From a virus, in IMG/VR virus record IMGVR_UViG_3300028268_000004, positions 1 through 33,120 of that record: a stretch of DNA of 33,120 nucleotides. The stretch is one strand, 5' to 3'. The notes below the pieces were generated by a model. The model saw only the letters and a program-made list of their open reading frames with translations, ran no database searches and had not been told where the DNA came from. Position numbers and translations under genes: made by a program. This document shows positions 613-29,599 of the stretch, in pieces (the first letter of the stretch is position 1; each line of letters starts with the position of its first letter).

Positions 613-626
613 TCCAGAAAATGGAC
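612..626. promoter_or_regulatory. Dispersed palindromic operator-like site 1
   Basis: ATCCAGAAAATGGAC matches the reverse complement of the consensus GTCCATTTTCTGGAC with one change at the outer base. It overlaps the last base of the methyltransferase stop codon and ends 11 bp before the TTG start of the radical SAM gene, directly against its AAGGAGG ribosome site. Confidence 0.8.
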
Positions 627-637
627 AAGGAGGGAGT

Positions 638-1606
638 TTGAACAACATAGTAAAACTTGAAGACATTGGGTTCTACACCCTGTCCGACAAGAGATGTGCA
701 GGAGCGTCAGAAAACTCCGATCTCCAGCGGTGTGAACTGATCCTCACTGGGCGGTGCAATTTTAAATGCCCCTACTGCCGACGAGTTGGAGGATCTGACC
801 TAAATTTTGATCTCGCCAAACGAACCGTGATTTGGTGGTGTGCTGAAGGATTGAAGAATATCAGATTCTCGGGTGGAGAACCCACACTATACAATGGCCT
901 TGTGGATTTGGTTAAGTTGGCCTATACAAACGGAGTTGAGCATATCGCCGTATCTACGAACGGGTCTTCGTCTAGAGCAATGTATGACCATCTACTTCTA
1001 GCAGGAGTAAATGACTTTAGCATCTCTCTGGACGCCTGTTGCTCTGTGGACGGAGATCGAATGGCTGGGATCTCAGGTTCATGGGACCATGTAACTGAAA
1101 ATATCCGATATTTGTCCCACCAGACATACGTTACGGTCGGAGTGGTCCTTACCGATTACAATTACCGAGAATTGGATGGGATCATTCGTTTTGCGGATAG
1201 TTTGGGTGTTTCAGACATCCGAATAATTCCCGCAGCTCAAGAAGGCAATCGTCTCCGAGAAGTAGTTGTGTCGGAGGACTTGCTCCAAAAATATCCAATT
1301 CTTGCATATCGCATTAAGAATATTTGGGAAGGAAAAGCAGTTCGCGGATTACAGGAAATCGACTCAAAAAAGTGCGGGTTGGTGCTAGACGATATGGCGA
1401 TTTGTCAGAACCAGCACTACCCGTGTATTATTTACATGCGGGAGGGTGGGAGTCCGATTGGAAAAGTTGGTCCTAACATGAGACAGGAACGTAAAGATTG
1501 GTTCTTGCGTCATGATACCCACAAAGATACGATCTGCGGGAATAATTGCTTGGATGTATGCGTGGACTATAACAACAAGTATCGTAGTTTTCATGGTACA
1601 GAGTAG
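638..1606 (+). CDS. Radical SAM protein
   Basis: Radical SAM enzymes use a [4Fe-4S] cluster to split S-adenosylmethionine and start radical chemistry. The cluster motif CxxxCxxC is at C40, C44 and C47 (GRCNFKCPYC), and the SAM-binding GGEP motif is near residue 80. Further cysteines at about 246, 256 and 263 and at about 300, 304 and 308 (CGNNCLDVC) suggest an auxiliary Fe-S site, as in MoaA or SPASM-type members. The 322-residue length fits the family. The start is TTG at 638, chosen because AAGGAGG lies just upstream; an operator-like palindrome sits immediately before it. The gene is followed after 15 bp by rtcB, so the two are probably co-translated. Substrate unknown: modification of RNA, a nucleotide or a peptide are all possible. 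Confidence 0.88.
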   Translation: MNNIVKLEDIGFYTLSDKRCAGASENSDLQRCELILTGRCNFKCPYCRRVGGSDLNFDLAKRTVIWWCAEGLKNIRFSGGEPTLYNGLVDLVKLAYTNGVEHIAVSTNGSSSRAMYDHLLLAGVNDFSISLDACCSVDGDRMAGISGSWDHVTENIRYLSHQTYVTVGVVLTDYNYRELDGIIRFADSLGVSDIRIIPAAQEGNRLREVVVSEDLLQKYPILAYRIKNIWEGKAVRGLQEIDSKKCGLVLDDMAICQNQHYPCIIYMREGGSPIGKVGPNMRQERKDWFLRHDTHKDTICGNNCLDVCVDYNNKYRSFHGTE

Positions 1607-1621
1607 AAAAAGGAGTAACAG

Positions 1622-2803
1622 ATGCAAGTTCTATCTGACAAAGTAACTGTTTTTGGCACAATAGACGAAAACGCCGTAAAACAAATACTTCGGACCTCCG
1701 AAAACGAAAGCGTTGTAAGAGCTTCCATTTGTGCGGACGGACATGTTGGTTACGGAGTGCCGATTGGCGGAGTTGTCGCTTATCGAGATTCTATTAGCCC
1801 AACTGGAGTTGGTTACGACATCGGATGTGGAAATCTAGCCGTCCGTTTAGACATTCCCGGATCAGAACTCCGAACCAACATTAAGAAAATAATGGATGAT
1901 ATTTGGAGCACAATCAGTTTCGGAATCGGACAGAAGAACAACGAGACAGTAGATTCTGAACTGTTTGAATCGGACTCCTGGAAACTTCCCGCTATTGCTC
2001 CTTTGAAGGAAATGGCTCGTCAGCAGCTTGGCACGGTGGGGAGCGGAAATCACTACGTTGATTTGTTTACCGATGAACTGGATCGCGTTTGGGTTGGGGT
2101 TCACTTTGGGTCGCGCGGACTGGGGCACAAGACAGCTACCTACTTCCTGAAAGCCGCAGGAGCAAAGGATGGGATGGATGTAGAACCTTGCGTACTTCCT
2201 GTAGATAGCGAACTCGGATCAGACTATTTGGTCGGAATGAAATTGTCTGGGGAGTACGCTTATATCGGTCGCAATTGGGTGTGTAATCGGGTCGCCAATA
2301 TTCTCGGAGCGACTGCTCTAGAAGAAGTTCACAACCACCACAACTTCGCTTGGAGAGAAAACCACGGCGGAGAAGACCTCTGGGTAGTTCGTAAAGGATC
2401 GACTCCTGCTTTCCCTGGTCAAAAGGGTTTTGTCGGTGGTACAATGGGAGAGAAGTCGGTGATTTTGGAAGGTGTTGAAAACGAAAACGCCAAGTATTCG
2501 TTGTACTCTACTGTCCATGGAGCAGGTCGTGCTATGGGGCGCGCGGAAGCGAAGGGTACTTTTGATCGAAAGACTGGAGCAGTAAAGAGAGTCGGAAAGG
2601 TCGCCCCCGAGATGATGAAATCCTGGGTTGACAAATCTGGGATTGAACTTCGAGGAGCAGGTTTGGATGAATCTCCAGACTGCTATAAACGACTTCCTGA
2701 AGTTTTAGAAGCGTGTGGAGATTCGATCAAGATTCTGCATACCTTAACTCCTGTGGGTGTTGCAATGGCGGGAGCAAATGAATACGATCCGTTTAAAGAC
2801 TGA
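1622..2803 (+). CDS. rtcB: RtcB-family RNA ligase
   Basis: RtcB joins RNA ends carrying 2',3'-cyclic phosphate or 3'-phosphate to 5'-OH ends, using GTP and Mn2+. Metal and nucleotide motifs are all visible: DGHVGYGVPIGG (residues 39-50), YDIGCG (65-70, Cys69), GSGNHY (140-145), GVHFGSRGLGH (159-169), HHNFAWREN (239-247), RKGSTPAFPG (257-266) and STVHGAGR (296-303), where His299 is expected to carry the GMP. At 393 residues it is slightly shorter than E. coli RtcB (about 408) and looks intact. The start ATG follows AAAGGAG. In a phage, an RtcB can repair RNAs such as tRNAs cut by host anticodon nucleases; that role is inference here. It sits 15 bp after the radical SAM gene. Confidence 0.95.
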   Translation: MQVLSDKVTVFGTIDENAVKQILRTSENESVVRASICADGHVGYGVPIGGVVAYRDSISPTGVGYDIGCGNLAVRLDIPGSELRTNIKKIMDDIWSTISFGIGQKNNETVDSELFESDSWKLPAIAPLKEMARQQLGTVGSGNHYVDLFTDELDRVWVGVHFGSRGLGHKTATYFLKAAGAKDGMDVEPCVLPVDSELGSDYLVGMKLSGEYAYIGRNWVCNRVANILGATALEEVHNHHNFAWRENHGGEDLWVVRKGSTPAFPGQKGFVGGTMGEKSVILEGVENENAKYSLYSTVHGAGRAMGRAEAKGTFDRKTGAVKRVGKVAPEMMKSWVDKSGIELRGAGLDESPDCYKRLPEVLEACGDSIKILHTLTPVGVAMAGANEYDPFKD

Positions 2804-2816
2804 TCATGGAGAGAAC

Positions 2817-3173
2817 ATGAAGTTAAAAGCAGGGAGTAAAGTAAAATTCTTGTCAGAGAAAAGACCCTACACTGTGCAGGCTTCTGATGAGCGATACGCA
2901 GTCTGTACAAAACCATTCAATCCACAGCACACGGTTCTCTACGCCATCATTGACTTCGAGGAAAATGTGCGTGGGCCGGAAAACCTTATATTTGGCCTGG
3001 GTGCAGAAACGCGGAAGCAGTGCGAAGACATACTGGATCGTCTAAATGGTCGTCTTGATTCGGGATCTCGTGAATTGATAGGTACCGAGCTAGAACGGCA
3101 CATTTGCATAAACCAGACAGAGGTATCACACCGCAACCGAATTGAACTTGACATTGAGAAAATAATTGACTAA
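2817..3173 (+). CDS. Conserved phage protein of unknown function
   Basis: A 118-residue protein. I chose ATG 2817 because GGAGAG precedes it; an in-frame ATG at 2757 would run 47 bp into rtcB and lacks a good ribosome site. The sequence opens with a short beta-rich segment (KLKAGSKVKF) and contains PFNPQHTVLYAIIDFEENVRGPENLIFG, a pattern I recall in small phage proteins of unknown function. It has two cysteines, no transmembrane segment and no catalytic motif I can name. It ends just before a long (39-bp) gap holding an operator-like palindrome, so it may be the last gene of the radical SAM-rtcB transcript. Confidence 0.8.
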   Translation: MKLKAGSKVKFLSEKRPYTVQASDERYAVCTKPFNPQHTVLYAIIDFEENVRGPENLIFGLGAETRKQCEDILDRLNGRLDSGSRELIGTELERHICINQTEVSHRNRIELDIEKIID

Positions 3174-3185
3174 CCTTTGTAGGTA

Positions 3186-3200
3186 GTCCATTTTCTGGAC
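3186..3200. promoter_or_regulatory. Dispersed palindromic operator-like site 2 (exact consensus)
   Basis: GTCCATTTTCTGGAC, an exact copy. It sits in the 39-bp gap between two genes and ends 12 bp before the GTG start at 3213, abutting AAAGGAGG. Arms GTCCA and TGGAC are separated by TTTTC. Confidence 0.85.
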
Positions 3201-6313: not shown

Positions 6314-7377
6314 ACATCCTAGCAACAGAACTTAAACATCAACTAAAGAAACTTTCGCCCGTCAAGACGGAGCAGTTTATCATCGGCCCCCACGGGGTGT
6401 CCGCACAGGATTCAGACGTGTGGGCGGTGGTAGAAAGTCCATTATCCGGACTAGGGGATCCCTTCAGTCTCAACGGTAAAAAGTTCAGTCAAGTTCTTAA
6501 TCGGATGAGTGGGCAGGTCACCGTTGATCGGGAAGACAAGAAGATTACCATCCGTTCGGCTAAGGCAAAGGTTGATCTAGAGATTGCCAACGTCAAGAGC
6601 CAGACGATCCCAGATCCGCCAGAAAAAACTATGAGTTTTTCTTGCAAGGAATTTAAATCTGCTGTTTCCACCGCCGTTTCTTCTGCTTCCACCAACAAGA
6701 GCGCAGACTTTGGAGGCGTGATTCAAGTTCGAACCCTTCCTCTAGGTCTCGAAGAAGAATCCCCTTCTGGGTATCAGGTAATAGGAACCGACGGAAATGT
6801 TCTTACCGTAGTTCTGGAGATGGCAGCAGAGCCGTATGAGACTAAATTTCTCTTAAATTTTACCGCAGCTTCGGTTGTTCAATCTCTGGATGAAGATATC
6901 ATTTTTGGAGAGACAAACACCAGCCTCCAGTTCCAGTCGGGAGGAGTCAGAGTTTTCGCATCAAAGCCAAATCAGACCTACCCAGAGTTTGGGAAACTTT
7001 TGAAAGAAGAGCCAAAGATTCTACTATCCCTAAAACCTGGGGAGTGGGTGTCGGCTTTACATACCATAGAACCTCTTATTGATACAGAGATAGACAGCGG
7101 AGGAGTGACGGGAAAGTTCAAGGAAGGAACGGTTACTTGGACCGCAGGAGGAATCGGATCTCTGGCCTCTGATGAGGCTACCTATGAACAGATTTCTCCA
7201 GATCCCATTTTTGATCCAAAGGAATTTACTCTTCGGATCAACGAAAAATATCTGTCTGGATTTCTTTCAAAAGCTGGAGATTCGGCAATCTTAAAACTCA
7301 CGGATACGAACAAGCCGGTTCAGATGGAGTCTGGGAATATTACAGTTTTGGTGATGCTAATGAAGGGAAGCAAATGA
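6310..7377 (+). CDS. Sliding clamp (DNA polymerase III beta-like)
   Basis: The beta clamp encircles DNA and tethers the polymerase. The 355-residue length is close to the usual ~366, and three repeating clamp subdomains can be traced: an N-terminal unit with LNGKKFSQVLNRM and VTVDREDKKITIRSAKAKVDL, a middle unit with FKSAVSTAVSSAS and YQVIGTDGNVLTVV, and a C-terminal unit. The end, PVQMESGNITVLVMLMKG, matches the DnaN signature near the peptide-binding cleft. The start is GTG overlapping the previous stop. A phage-encoded bacterial-type clamp implies a polymerase able to use it, either the host's or one encoded outside this window. A weak operator-like site is at 6437-6451. Confidence 0.85.
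   Translation: MNILATELKHQLKKLSPVKTEQFIIGPHGVSAQDSDVWAVVESPLSGLGDPFSLNGKKFSQVLNRMSGQVTVDREDKKITIRSAKAKVDLEIANVKSQTIPDPPEKTMSFSCKEFKSAVSTAVSSASTNKSADFGGVIQVRTLPLGLEEESPSGYQVIGTDGNVLTVVLEMAAEPYETKFLLNFTAASVVQSLDEDIIFGETNTSLQFQSGGVRVFASKPNQTYPEFGKLLKEEPKILLSLKPGEWVSALHTIEPLIDTEIDSGGVTGKFKEGTVTWTAGGIGSLASDEATYEQISPDPIFDPKEFTLRINEKYLSGFLSKAGDSAILKLTDTNKPVQMESGNITVLVMLMKGSK
6437..6451. promoter_or_regulatory. Weak operator-like site inside the clamp gene
   Basis: GTCCATTATCCGGAC, two mismatches from the consensus with both outer arms kept. It reads as SPLSGL in the clamp, similar to the SPFSGQ peptide made by exact sites elsewhere. It could be a weak intragenic site or chance. Confidence 0.3.
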
Positions 7378-7601
7378 TGGAATACGGTAAATTTAAACCA
7401 TTGGATGATATCCTCACTGATATTATACATCATATCCGTTTGGGACACTATGATGACAGAGAAGCTAGACAAAGAATTAAATTCTGGTTTGGGGAAGACC
7501 CACGAGAGGTGGAGTGCCAATGTTGGGGTTTAAATCCTATGTTGTACATGACCAATCCCCGGAGATGCCCCATATGCAAAAGGGAGGTACCATACAAATG
7601 A
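7374..7601 (+). CDS. Small zinc-ribbon-like protein
   Basis: A 75-residue protein whose start overlaps the clamp stop (ATGATG). The N-terminal half is helical (LDDILTDIIHHIRLGHYDDREARQRI) and the C-terminal half carries CQCW...CPIC, a probable four-cysteine zinc site at residues 48-70. Such short zinc ribbons in phages often bind nucleic acid or protein partners; the exact role is unknown. Its stop overlaps the next start (ATGA). Confidence 0.78.
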   Translation: MMEYGKFKPLDDILTDIIHHIRLGHYDDREARQRIKFWFGEDPREVECQCWGLNPMLYMTNPRRCPICKREVPYK

Positions 7602-8311
7602 CCCACGAAATCTACCTTCCTCCTCTGAACAAAGACAACGCTGTGCAGTTGGGGTCCGAAATTGACACCTTGCTGGACCAGATCACCTCTCACGAGCTTA
7701 GGCTAGCCAGTAGCTATGCCCGTCTCGGGGGGCTGCTTCGTGAGGTAAAAAACCAGCAATACTGGATGGTTTATGGGTATGACCGATTTTCTTCCTACCT
7801 TAGCTTTATTTGTGAAAAAATAGGTAGACAAAGGAGTCAGGTTTATGCTATATTAACTGTAGCTGAAACATTGCTTCCTTTGGTTTCCGAAGAGCAGTTA
7901 GAGTCTGTAGGGATTTCCAAGGCCCACGAACTTCGGAGATTGGTAAAACAAGGCGGAAATATTAACTCGGAGGTTCTTGACGACCGGAATCAAACCGAAG
8001 ACACCCTGGGAACTGTCCAGTTAATGGACTACGCGTCTCGCCCAAATGTGACGGCGGCTATGCTGCGGGTCAAAGTAAACGAACTTTTACACTGCCACGA
8101 AGGACCGTCAGGAAATTGGATCGATCTGGGAGGGTTTTATACAGATCCCGAAGAAAGAAAAGAACTAGAGGTGTTTTGGAACATAGGACGAAAGATTTTA
8201 GGTCTGACCAACGAGCAGGCAGACCACATCTGGAAGAAGGAAGTAATGATGGCAGCGGTTCGGGAAGCTACGTCAACATGGCAGGGAGAAATAGGAAACG
8301 CCAGTGCCTAA
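7598..8311 (+). CDS. ParB/KorB-like DNA-binding protein
   Basis: A 237-residue protein read from ATG 7598, which overlaps the preceding stop and follows GGGAGG; an in-frame ATG at 7514 lies inside the previous gene. Residues about 35-120 (ARLGGLLREVKNQQYWMVYGYDRFSSYLSFICEKIGRQRSQVYAILTVAETL...GISKAHELRRLVKQG) resemble the helical DNA-binding region of ParB/KorB-like and DUF3102-like mobile-element proteins, with a likely helix-turn-helix near 70-88. The C-terminal half is helical with no recognised motif. It could be a replication or transcription regulator, and is one candidate for the protein that binds the dispersed palindrome; nothing in the sequence proves this. Confidence 0.65.
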   Translation: MTHEIYLPPLNKDNAVQLGSEIDTLLDQITSHELRLASSYARLGGLLREVKNQQYWMVYGYDRFSSYLSFICEKIGRQRSQVYAILTVAETLLPLVSEEQLESVGISKAHELRRLVKQGGNINSEVLDDRNQTEDTLGTVQLMDYASRPNVTAAMLRVKVNELLHCHEGPSGNWIDLGGFYTDPEERKELEVFWNIGRKILGLTNEQADHIWKKEVMMAAVREATSTWQGEIGNASA

Positions 8312-8693
8312 AAAATCTAAAATGGTCCACGTTTCCCTAGGGGAGGATGGTAGAGCTACCCATATTTTCAAAGGAAAGAACTGGTTAAACTGCAACGGGG
8401 AAATGCTTTTGATAGATAGGGGCAAGGCCGTTGGACAGATTCGTCAGCAGGTTTTTGAACGATGTTCCGTGGAGGGTTCCTCCGATTGGCACGAATGTGA
8501 AAGGTGCGGAAGGACTATTACTTGGGAGACCATGGAGATGCACGAGACACTCCCCAAAGGATCAGGCGGGGAGGTCTCACTTGAAAACTGTGAGGCACTG
8601 TGCCACCAGTGTCATCAAGGAGCAGAAGATTCCGCTCACGGGAATCGGCGTTGGCATTCAGCAAAAATATCGTCCGAAGAAGGACTCGAATGA
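8304..8693 (+). CDS. HNH endonuclease
   Basis: A 129-residue protein starting with GTG 8304 and overlapping the preceding gene by 8 bp. It carries a zinc-finger HNH core: CERC (C65, C68), MEMHE (H80), LEN (N95), CHQC (C100, C103), with later His residues at H112 and H118. HNH proteins cut or nick DNA; in phages they work in packaging, homing or recombination. Its place inside a tight replication operon, with ATGA overlap to the next gene, argues against a recently inserted homing gene. The N-terminal 60 residues are not recognised. Confidence 0.8.
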   Translation: MPKKSKMVHVSLGEDGRATHIFKGKNWLNCNGEMLLIDRGKAVGQIRQQVFERCSVEGSSDWHECERCGRTITWETMEMHETLPKGSGGEVSLENCEALCHQCHQGAEDSAHGNRRWHSAKISSEEGLE

Positions 8694-9178
8694 TCGACAT
8701 TCTTAAATACGATCCCGTAATCAAAGATGTGATGTTTAAACTTCACGTAAACAGTCATGAAAAAGAAGACATAACCCAGGAATGTTATGTGGCCTTACTG
8801 GAGAAACAATCACACTTGGAAAAAGGTATTGAACTGGGAGATGATTTGAATTACGCAGCCACTATCTGCCGATCAAAAATCCTGGATATCTTCCGAGAAC
8901 AAAAAACAGACATCAAAACATATTCTTTATTCTCACACGGAAATTACAACAAGGCTTCCCAAATCAGTGAGTTGATGACGGATAGTATTACGGAAGAACA
9001 GCTACAGGACGCCATACTGGATCTTCCAGACAGAACCAGAGAGGCAGTCTGGGAACAGTTCATAAAAGGTAACCCACGTAAAACTGTTGCTGTGACTTTA
9101 GGAGTATCGGAGAGTACGGTCCAGCGCGAGTGCCAAAAAGGAATCAAGATGTTAAAGAAGAAGTTTGAGGTGGAGTAA
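8690..9178 (+). CDS. Sigma-70 family RNA polymerase sigma factor
   Basis: A 162-residue protein read from ATG 8690 (ATGA overlap); an in-frame ATG at 8600 falls inside the HNH gene. Residues about 20-75 (EKEDITQECYVALLEK...NYAATICRSKILDIFREQK) match sigma region 2, which contacts core polymerase and the -10 element. Residues about 105-158 (LPDRTREAVWEQFIKGNPRKTVAVTLGVSESTVQRECQKGIKMLKKKF) match the region 4 helix-turn-helix. The size is that of ECF or phage sigma factors. It probably redirects host RNA polymerase to phage promoters, for example the leftward virion block; its promoters were not identified. Confidence 0.85.
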   Translation: MIDILKYDPVIKDVMFKLHVNSHEKEDITQECYVALLEKQSHLEKGIELGDDLNYAATICRSKILDIFREQKTDIKTYSLFSHGNYNKASQISELMTDSITEEQLQDAILDLPDRTREAVWEQFIKGNPRKTVAVTLGVSESTVQRECQKGIKMLKKKFEVE

Positions 9179-10398: not shown

Positions 10399-10850
10399 TG
10401 GGTAAGATTCTTACTTTTACCGCTTTTGGAACGCCCCATCCCCAAGGTTCGTCAAAAGCCTTTGTCCGTGGAGGACGCGCCTATGTAACAAGCGCAAATC
10501 CAAAGATGAAGCCATACAGACACACCTTGACTCAAGTAGCATTGGGCGCTGTGGAGCAAAGCGGAAATTCTCTACCCCTATTTCCGAGACCAGAAGCTGT
10601 GAATATTTCTGTTGTGTGGACGTTATCAAAACCGAAGAGTACCCCAAAGAAAGTAGTTTACCCAACTAAAAAGCCAGATGCGGATAAGTTACTTCGGGCA
10701 GTTCTAGATTCTCTTACGGGGGTAGCTTACGAAGATGATTCGCAGGTAGTCAGGGTTTCTGCTCAGAAAGAGTATGGGTCACCCGAAAAGACAGAAGTAA
10801 CAGTAACAAGTATTGAAGAAGCAAGTCCATTTTCTGGACAGGAGAAGTGA
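10398..10850 (+). CDS. rusA: RusA-like Holliday junction resolvase
   Basis: RusA cuts Holliday junctions and branched DNA, helping recombination and resolution before packaging. The 150-residue reading starts at ATG 10398 (TAATG overlap). An N-terminal strand (TFTAFGTPHPQGSSKAFVRGGRAYV) is followed by the signature KKPDADKLLRAVLDSLTG...YEDDSQVVRVSAQKEYG, giving acidic residues D94, D96, D104 and D113/D114 that match the RusA metal site. It is about 30 residues longer than E. coli RusA. Its C-terminal residues SPFSGQ are encoded by an exact operator-like palindrome. Confidence 0.88.
   Translation: MGKILTFTAFGTPHPQGSSKAFVRGGRAYVTSANPKMKPYRHTLTQVALGAVEQSGNSLPLFPRPEAVNISVVWTLSKPKSTPKKVVYPTKKPDADKLLRAVLDSLTGVAYEDDSQVVRVSAQKEYGSPEKTEVTVTSIEEASPFSGQEK
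10825..10839. promoter_or_regulatory. Dispersed palindromic operator-like site 4 (exact consensus)
   Basis: GTCCATTTTCTGGAC, exact copy, in the last codons of rusA (SPFSGQ) and ending 10 bp before the ATG at 10850, next to AGGAG. Confidence 0.82.
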
Positions 10851-13467: not shown

Positions 13468-13482
13468 GTCCATTTTCTGGAC
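13468..13482. promoter_or_regulatory. Dispersed palindromic operator-like site 5 (exact consensus)
   Basis: GTCCATTTTCTGGAC, exact copy, preceded by GGTA like site 2. No start codon follows on either strand: it lies after the last rightward gene and 6 bp before the central terminator hairpin. This placement is unlike a simple promoter operator and recalls stoperators. Confidence 0.82.
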
Positions 13483-17300: not shown

Positions 17301-18530
17301 CGCTTCCCTTTCGCGATTAGTTCTATCCAGAGCCAAAAACTCATCATTGGGCCTGAACTTGTCGGTGGATAGTAGGGGTTTGAATAATTCTCCTGCGGAA
17401 GAAAGAGCATGTCCCGCTCCTGCTACTCCCAGCCCGGCACCAGCTAGGGCCTCGGTACCATATTCCAAAGCATGGTCATAGTCTCCTTCTTTCAAGGCAT
17501 CAAGAAAGCGAGGAGACATCGAAGCGGCGGATTCAAATTGTTGCAGGGTGAATCCGGCGTTGAGAATTGTGTTGGCGGTTCTGGATGCTCTCAGCGCGGC
17601 GGCTACGGGGAGATCGGGAACCGCGCTCCGGATAACATGAAACGCCCCTCTCTCCATGGCGTTTCCACCGAGAAGGTCCGCTTCAGTGAGACCGTTCTTG
17701 TAAAGTAGGTCTTGGGCTGTTTTCCACTGGTCTACGTTTGCTCCAGATTCTCTAACCGCGTCTTCAACAGGACTGAAACTTTTCTTAGCCTCCGCAACTG
17801 TTTTCCCAGCATCTGCGAGTTTAGACAGTTCTTCGTCTGAGAATCCGCCGTTGGCTGAAGCCAAAACCGAACGTTCTTCGGGCGCAAGTTCTCCCGCCTC
17901 CAGAGATTTAATCTGAGGGCGGGTTAAGCCAGATTTGGATAAAAGGTTCTGTACTTCTTTGGATCCGAGTTCGGCGTCTCTATTAAGCGGGGACACGACG
18001 GCCCTAGCCCTATTCAGAAGAGACAGATCGTGCCCCCCTGCTTCCAGAGCTTGGTTGATGTAGGGTTCAATAGGTTTTGCGTCCTTGATCGCCTGTAGGG
18101 CCGCTGTGGACGCTTTTGTAGCATTGGCAATTTCTTCTGCGGATAGTCCTGCTTCTTTGAGGGTGGTGGCTCCCGCCGATTCCAAAAGTCCCCCACCGCC
18201 GAAGGTCGCGGCTGTTAGGGCCAGCGAAAGTGGACTTGTCAATCCTCCAACAATGTGCTCTACACCACGTTCGAAACCTCCCGCGCCAGGACGGTCTTCA
18301 GGAAGTCCAAACAAACTTTCCGTGATAGGAGTGTTGGCAAAATCCCACGCACGTTTGTACCAGGGTTGACTTGAGTCCTGGTAAACGTGCTGAGAGGGTT
18401 GTCCAGAAAATGGACTACTGGACTTTCCTCCCCCCAGCATATCAAGAATATCCCCTCCCCCAGACGAAACGGGAGGAGGGGCCGAAGTTTGAGTATTTGA
18501 CTTATTTCCTAGTAGATCGAGGATGTCCAT
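14310..18530 (-). CDS. Giant internal virion protein-like protein (polyvalent type)
   Basis: A 1406-residue protein from ATG 18530 with AGGAA upstream. It starts with repeated short motifs (MDILDLLG, DILDMLGGG) set in Gly/Ser/Pro linkers, followed by long Ala-rich helical regions. Near residues 1005-1045, NDTFGGINWRQMGRSATTQDWGRLLLLAPDWLEAEMRSGARLF recalls the C-terminal LPD-type domain of large polyvalent phage proteins. The C-terminus ends with a small domain (YLYTATHPQTGHKVGSNNGTDWFDHQTGEPI). Proteins of this size at the end of podovirus virion operons are usually ejected into the host with DNA, like T7 gp16; that role is inferred. I see no lytic-transglycosylase motif. An exact operator-like site encodes SPFSGQ near its N-terminus. 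Confidence 0.75.
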   Translation of the reverse strand: MDILDLLGNKSNTQTSAPPPVSSGGGDILDMLGGGKSSSPFSGQPSQHVYQDSSQPWYKRAWDFANTPITESLFGLPEDRPGAGGFERGVEHIVGGLTSPLSLALTAATFGGGGLLESAGATTLKEAGLSAEEIANATKASTAALQAIKDAKPIEPYINQALEAGGHDLSLLNRARAVVSPLNRDAELGSKEVQNLLSKSGLTRPQIKSLEAGELAPEERSVLASANGGFSDEELSKLADAGKTVAEAKKSFSPVEDAVRESGANVDQWKTAQDLLYKNGLTEADLLGGNAMERGAFHVIRSAVPDLPVAAALRASRTANTILNAGFTLQQFESAASMSPRFLDALKEGDYDHALEYGTEALAGAGLGVAGAGHALSSAGELFKPLLSTDKFRPNDEFLALDRTNREREAQHAVAEQHAIEVAKEARKILGHEPVRPILGDTPEVAAKKADELAMVIAQRQLGTNPELAKKYAAVLRAANGEDVKVPEGGPENGLPENLEEMIKDNKFKDKPQEYKDRVIRSYDAVGNGTVPENVVNAAKYLAEQEDRNYEIGSGNGLLTNYIDGHFHRTWENENPSGRVVAADSKSGRFTTRVSQAKQRVYDSTLTGLLKSPTQMKLDPVEITAQDRASLLKAAANKQLVHSLRDNFVRGSDGRPAVVLSGSGKVVAGANGEDPTTFIRPDQVNLITVAKPVIEHLQKTGDLERFLDEGSLRDITPRVYPQNIASSIEKLEDQAGKQEAKYDPEGNNILRKQIAALKDMQARGDYSGLKDFNSSLEKKYAWDPQDYITINNSAMRGWNFATNDSAGHSVLVNSDIRVHPEYAEYLKNRLGLAESDLARNPVGKALLGAGTKMKKTLLSLSPFHMVQEALRGIMVGVNPIGALKDAVHGDGPNILSGEKIDPSNPNSDTILKKCVEQGGTLGVDFKSLQEHSAGKSEGLSSDGGLLQKIPGVGKTIGNSMQFYENFLFQRYIPSLKARAMELMYHRYQEAHPDWSVDHVARAAASHTNDTFGGINWRQMGRSATTQDWGRLLLLAPDWLEAEMRSGARLFNKDEGGLGREQVAKMAMSMWGIARVLNLVGTGNAHYEAPFGLAVKNKEGKETVFSIRILPTDLLHAASDPVQFLTGRLNPTIRTGQELVSGRDQYGRKLSPQDLWVDVFRNMAPIPAQSIGQMVSGSGPEVGSPAQVWKAIGGTARTFQTPAGKMAADLAASHSEDGLVDPSQQARHRMIINLEDQVRAGEVSWPDVVKLTYNTGQLKESEMKRMQQNLQHTKGMDSTMASLYTRASRLPATEYLQLMEQMNPSEKTALLPLTQQVMKKYTSKAMKSMTPQERSQDPTLQRILNMMHPGGNQVSYAPPPTSPVIPEPVKNEVAYLYTATHPQTGHKVGSNNGTDWFDHQTGEPING
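17048..17062. promoter_or_regulatory. Operator-like site inside the giant virion gene
   Basis: GTCCATTTTCAGGAC, one mismatch from consensus, buried in coding sequence about 1.5 kb after the start. Possible intragenic stoperator, or chance. Confidence 0.4.
18401..18415. promoter_or_regulatory. Dispersed palindromic operator-like site 7 (exact consensus)
   Basis: GTCCAGAAAATGGAC on the plus strand; the minus (coding) strand reads the exact consensus. It lies about 115 bp inside the giant virion gene, in a Gly/Ser/Pro linker where it encodes SPFSGQ, so the protein tolerates it. Confidence 0.75.
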
Positions 18531-29584: not shown

Positions 29585-29599
29585 GTCCAGAAAATGGAC
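29585..29599. promoter_or_regulatory. Dispersed palindromic operator-like site 10 (exact consensus)
   Basis: Reads GTCCAGAAAATGGAC on the plus strand, exact consensus on the coding minus strand. It overlaps the upstream gene's stop by one base and is 9 bp before ATG 29575, with GGAG immediately after it. Confidence 0.82.

Follow-up and report, generated by a model that had tools for sequence, protein, structure and literature searches.

A radical SAM gene next to rtcB in a probable phage genome fragment: non-random but facultative pairing with an RNA ligase, and a small partner protein

RtcB ligases join RNA ends carrying a 2',3'-cyclic phosphate to 5'-OH ends, the products left by metal-independent ribonucleases. 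That RtcB works in phages as an RNA-repair enzyme, mending tRNA cleaved by the host, has been proposed already (PMC7824862), and the combination of RNA repair with a marking methylase has been described as well (PMC4411300). The rtcB half of the locus analyzed here is therefore known biology, its product being an ordinary phage enzyme. The gene lying ahead of it encodes a radical SAM protein (rSAM). Radical SAM is unmentioned in the text of the survey of phage RtcBs and jumbo phages (PMC7824862), and a literature search on RtcB plus radical SAM in phages retrieved no paper; neither the rSAM-RtcB link nor the small rSAM partner reported below was found described in the literature searched.

The stretch of DNA analyzed (the window) is the whole IMG/VR virus record IMGVR_UViG_3300028268_000004, 33,120 b in length, which features no end repeats and is probably a fragment of a phage genome. 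The rSAM gene spans positions 638-1606 (322 aa; TTG start, AAGGAGG just upstream), rtcB positions 1622-2803 (393 aa; ATG start, AAGGAG upstream). Both reside on the plus strand and are separated by 15 bp (1607-1621), an arrangement reported in the preliminary description and confirmed by the open reading frames and by Pfam and PHROG matches. Both genes recur, 100% identical, in another contig (L002, 6.4 kb), which speaks against an artefact of assembly. An ORF of 118 aa (2817..3173, plus strand), 13 bp downstream of rtcB and probably part of the same transcription unit, matches PHROG 14402, a family with no assigned function, and has no Pfam match. Upstream of rSAM, a C5-cytosine methylase is represented in the 136-612 interval by its C-terminal part only (profile positions 269-323 of 324); the gene appears to be cut short or divided close to the end of the contig. 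Neither Rfam families nor tRNA genes were found within the window.

A 14-bp operator-like element, TCCAGAAAATGGAC, featuring palindromic arms (TCCA/TGGA), is located at 613..626, 12 bp ahead of the rSAM start codon. Copies are spread genome-wide on both strands: six are exact (613-626, 3186-3199, 10825-10838, 13468-13481, 18402-18415 and 29586-29599), seven more have one mismatch, and sites with up to three mismatches total 30 in the window, against 4.1 expected. Some are positioned 11-14 bp ahead of start codons, others within genes. The excess of near-matches marks TCCAGAAAATGGAC as a genome-wide element, which looks like a phage-wide operator; the operator-like site noticed earlier in front of the two genes is thus there, but is not specific to the pair.

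The window RtcB is a full-length predicted RNA ligase, in which metal-binding and GMP-acceptor residues are intact. The match to Pfam RtcB (PF01139; E 2.6e-64, 218.5 bits vs. a cut-off of 27) covers residues 22-381 of the protein and positions 2-424 of the 426 of the model; the protein also matches PHROG 1075, 'tRNA splicing ligase' (E 5e-74). The catalytic positions D66 and C69 (DIGCG), N143-H144, H161, H240 and H299 (HGAGR), the latter being the position of the GMP-acceptor histidine, are all present, as seen in alignment with RtcB chains of known structure from Pyrococcus horikoshii, and show no variation across 11 phage RtcBs. These residues, along with the earlier description of phage RtcB (PMC7824862), support the role in RNA repair initially suggested for the protein. 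Related RtcBs are encoded in 649 GenBank phage records. The nearest named relatives are found in Tunturiibacter phage Tunturi_5 (70% identity), Sinorhizobium phage AP-16-3 (55%) and Microcystis phage Mwe-JY26 (53%), none of which has a gene of this rSAM family, either adjoining rtcB or elsewhere on the genome. The record L153 (IMGVR_UViG_3300010233_000224) has structural proteins (32-47%) and RtcB (68%) in common with the window, and carries no rSAM of the window's family. A different protein, encoded about 2.3 kb past rtcB in this record, features the cysteine motif SRGCPAYTPACGVC, and could be another rSAM type.

The rSAM protein matches Pfam Radical_SAM (PF04055; E 1e-16, 61.9 bits vs. a cut-off of 29.5). 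The CxxxCxxC motif (C40, C44 and C47) is kept in 92/92 homologues. Exactly four cysteines in the C-terminal region (C246, C263, C300 and C304, arranged as C-x10-G-x5-C ... C-x3-C) are also invariant in 92/92 homologues, cellular outgroup included; C308 is kept in 88/92, and C135, located in a low-confidence loop, in 85/92. The presence of extra cysteine clusters, inferred from the single sequence, is thus borne out by the family. Since four invariant C-terminal cysteines are what one twitch-type auxiliary 4Fe-4S cluster needs, C246, C263, C300 and C304, plus C308, probably bind one such cluster. No Pfam match to SPASM was found in the protein, nor any known RNA-binding domain. The AlphaFold2 model (pLDDT 89) is nearest by Foldseek to BlsE (E 5e-13, TM 0.66), followed by DesII, SkfB, SuiB, PqqE, viperin and MoaA, enzymes working on nucleoside sugars, nucleotides or peptides, none on RNA. 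Named functions (MoaA, viperin, QueE, other equivalogs) were sought by family or PDB match, none scoring above cut-off: the best NCBIfam match is MoaA (TIGR02666; 80.7 vs. 284 bits), and viperin scores 35 vs. 180. As scores are far below all curated cut-offs, the substrate is not transferable by homology.

Homologues were collected from IMG/VR by using both the window protein and alignment A1. The family includes 94 distinct IMG/VR records, most at 50-66% identity, and is found almost only in viral contigs. Only three close relatives occur in GenBank phage records, all from uncultured phages, one in a record of 485 kb and two in records sharing a size of 735 kb. A search of roughly 85,000 genomes of bacteria and archaea yielded only six close matches; genes matching phage replication families occur among their neighbours, and these matches may therefore be viral DNA in bins. 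Distant full-length cellular relatives (L073:4125-6702 and L074:4866-7150; about 27% identity) share the same four C-terminal cysteines. In both genomes, the only two in which the association was seen, a PHP-type phosphoesterase directly follows the rSAM relative, its best match being 3',5'-nucleoside bisphosphate phosphatase / RNase RNM.

RtcB was found on 19 of the 94 rSAM records, about 80% showing none, though the records are often fragments. Linkage was assessed on 85 rSAM records (7.67 Mb), near-duplicates and the window's own copy being removed, against two expectations, one derived from pooled density, the other from random placement (permutation) within each record. RtcB lies within 1 kb of rSAM in 6/85 records, vs. 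0.37 expected from pooled density (p 3e-6) and 1.8 from permutation (p 0.002), and within 6 kb in 11/85, vs. 2.0-4.6 expected (p at most 1e-4); these placement tests leave room for hot spots of accessory genes shared by the two as the source of the linkage. The first 50 rSAM records, with RtcB on 8, had given a near-negative result (p 0.03 within 6 kb, no signal at 3 kb), overturned when the sample was enlarged by the addition of 44 records. The two genes are adjacent in L036, L252, L268, L280, L281 and L287, RtcB being upstream of rSAM in L280 and L281, downstream in the other four. Linked RtcBs are mostly 24-50% identical to one another, and placing the 12 RtcB carriers on the rSAM tree takes 12 changes. 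Divergent ligases, both gene orders and the number of changes indicate that the pairing arose many times.

Other families were monitored near rSAM in the same genomes. RlaP (6 vs. 3 expected, p 0.06) and PhoH (2 vs. 1 expected, not significant) served as controls; RNA_ligase (PF09414) shows mild enrichment (9 vs. 4 expected, p 0.007-0.03). A general RNA-repair island does not fit these loci: RlaP, Rnl1 and Rnl2 are common on rSAM genomes, their clustering with rSAM being weak or absent. An obligate rSAM-RtcB system does not fit either, given the 19/94 figure above and the finding of rSAM on none of 50 records bearing close relatives of the window RtcB, numbers which speak against the fixed unit envisaged in the preliminary description, where homologous radical SAM genes mostly lacking rtcB had been named as a refutation. 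The neighbourhood survey proposed there gave a split outcome, the linkage to RtcBs of different lineages being repeated and significant, but most rSAMs having no RtcB. The pairing is non-random but facultative, and supports a functional relation between the two proteins.

A protein of about 85 aa is a tighter partner of the rSAM family than RtcB. According to a profile search, it adjoins rSAM in 34/99 loci, on either side and mostly less than 30 bp away (L232:4715-4984, L049:5738-6004, L304:5953-6243 and about 31 other loci). All the profile matches found in 80 whole records (27/27) lie within 3.5 kb of rSAM; no match was found in 103 loci lacking rSAM, nor in GenBank phages when a single-sequence query was used. 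The protein is fused to the rSAM C-terminus in ORFs of 414 and 411 aa (L015:1845-3086, L017:6004-7245 and L028:6004-7236), L015/L017 and L028 being two lineages on different branches of the rSAM tree. The protein has no sequence match in Pfam, PHROG, NCBIfam or PDB, and no PDB fold match (best E 0.48); it is predicted to form a compact, globular alpha/beta domain (pLDDT 96). Conserved residues include F10, W15, R56, K58, W74, H76, E81 and F82, no cysteine being strictly conserved. Six of the 12 RtcB-linked loci (L045, L049, L252, L268, L280 and L304) encode it. The protein is absent from the window, and for this reason had escaped notice when the window alone was inspected.

Other rSAM neighbours are very diverse, and include PP2C, glycosyltransferase, PhoH, NAD synthase, methylase and GGDEF proteins. 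By blastp and phmmer clustering, the latter partly confounded by out-of-frame ORFs, the only conserved neighbour besides the ~85-aa protein is a mini-GGDEF protein found at seven loci (L022:2632-3051, L024:6975-7382, L027:1886-2395, L045:7263-7670, L049:6959-7378 and two further ones), most of them belonging to a single clade of the rSAM tree. These stand-alone GGDEF domains (about 136-140 aa) are phage-borne minimal diguanylate-cyclase-like proteins. The rSAM gene resides inside arrays of 20 and 23 tRNA genes in L004 and L008, respectively. In L003, a 96-kb phage record, a PP2C-type phosphatase and then a ClpB-like AAA+ protein are encoded directly downstream of rSAM (6951-8897). One ORF (L006:3417-5792), which groups with phage proteins resembling RNA ligases, contains an internal LAGLIDADG endonuclease domain (PF03161) that is probably an intein.

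The reading that we tentatively place first, as possible rather than probable, is that of a shared pathway, RtcB taking care of phage RNA repair, rSAM being an optional, probably RNA-modifying accessory. The two genes would be co-transcribed as an early phage operon dealing with damaged RNA. Metal-independent nucleases of the host defence would cut RNA, most likely tRNA, leaving 2',3'-cyclic-phosphate and 5'-OH ends, and RtcB, if active as predicted, would reseal them. As an accessory of the same response, rSAM would employ a SAM-cleaving 4Fe-4S cluster and one auxiliary cluster, and would most likely add a radical-derived modification to RNA, for instance where the cut was made or close to it; the mended RNA may in this way resist re-cleavage, according to the logic of the Hen1 methylase, though by another chemistry. 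Elsewhere, in many phages, rSAM would act with, or fused to, the ~85-aa subunit and without a phage RtcB, and the host RtcB or another ligase may serve. Pointing to RNA repair are the linkage to RtcB, the mild one to PF09414, and the rSAM genes set in tRNA arrays (L004 and L008). Against a shared pathway counts that the best-linked partner of rSAM is the ~85-aa protein, and not an RNA enzyme, as do the many rSAM records with no RtcB, the close relatives of the window RtcB with no rSAM, the solved folds nearest to rSAM, whose substrates are other than RNA, and the finding of no known RNA-binding domain in rSAM. A wider proposal, according to which virus-restricted rSAMs, often with the 85-aa subunit, form a new RNA-modifying class of phage RNA repair, appears doubtful: tRNA or rRNA ends would be marked or remodelled for the mended RNA to escape host ribonucleases, and pairing with RtcB would have occurred repeatedly and independently.

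The two genes may also be independent neighbours, a hypothesis to be taken seriously although it too falls short of being probable, and ranks after the shared pathway. An ordinary RtcB repair gene and an unrelated rSAM gene would both settle in early or accessory regions, and turn out adjacent at times. This accounts for the diversity of the other rSAM neighbours, for the many rSAM records without RtcB, for the close relatives of the window RtcB lacking rSAM, and for L153, in which window-like structural genes and RtcB coexist with no such rSAM on the record. Less easily accommodated is the enrichment of RtcB beside rSAM, spanning many independent RtcB lineages and both gene orders, whereas neither RlaP nor PhoH shows clear enrichment in these genomes.

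Two further hypotheses look at rSAM apart from RNA repair. The protein could be a maturase-like enzyme modifying a protein or peptide, with the 85-aa protein as dedicated partner or substrate, RtcB linkage being secondary and the window copy having lost the partner or using another. The occurrence of the 85-aa protein next to rSAM in a third of the loci, its fusion in two lineages, its confinement to the surroundings of rSAM, and peptide maturases (SkfB, SuiB and PqqE) among the Foldseek neighbours are in line with this. Yet about two thirds of rSAM loci, window included, lack the 85-aa protein, which moreover is a confidently folded globular domain with no strictly conserved cysteine, resembles no known recognition domain, and, when fused, suggests a subunit and not a released substrate; a maturase is on the whole unlikely. 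Still less likely, and in our view improbable, is that the substrate of rSAM is a nucleotide or sugar nucleotide, turned into a precursor of a DNA base or into some small molecule with no bearing on RNA repair. Folds (BlsE, DesII, viperin, MoaA), the best sequence profile (MoaA) and the PHP protein adjoining the L073 and L074 relatives would all suit such an activity, but the profile scores allow no transfer of substrate, scans of the window revealed no other DNA-hypermodification genes, and RtcB linkage is left unexplained.

Phage RNA ligases are known already, and the rSAM family provides a testable candidate for the means by which mended RNA escapes a second cleavage. A family present in 94 viral records, a new small partner and a non-random linkage to RtcB may bear on radical chemistry on RNA; even if the RNA idea fails, rSAM and the 85-aa protein make up a widespread, unassigned phage enzyme system.

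The C-terminal cysteines of rSAM resemble the four-cysteine twitch domain of SPASM/twitch maturases (SkfB, PqqE, SuiB), but the family differs from these in the lack of a Pfam SPASM match, in cysteine spacing, and in having a novel 85-aa globular protein as partner. BlsE, DesII, MoaA and viperin share with rSAM the radical SAM core and the overall fold (Foldseek TM about 0.5-0.66), the window protein being only 12-20% identical to them, below all curated cut-offs, and distinct in both the N-terminal motif (IGFYTLSD-R) and the C-terminal cysteine pattern. Pnkp/Rnl1 of phage T4 is comparable by function, as a phage counter to anticodon cleavage, a parallel drawn in the preliminary description. 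RtcB however seals cyclic-phosphate ends directly, and no Pnkp/Rnl1 match was found among 20 window proteins scanned with Pfam, in a record that is probably a fragment. The bacterial Pnkp1-Rnl-Hen1 complex (PMC4411300) is close in the proposed logic, a ligase joined to an enzyme marking the mended RNA; the window differs in having a ligase of another family, neither kinase-phosphatase nor Hen1 methylase, and rSAM as the putative RNA-modifying enzyme. With phage RtcB ligases (PF01139; PHROG 1075; PMC7824862) the window protein shares full length and all the catalytic residues, the difference being the rSAM gene placed ahead of rtcB in the putative operon.
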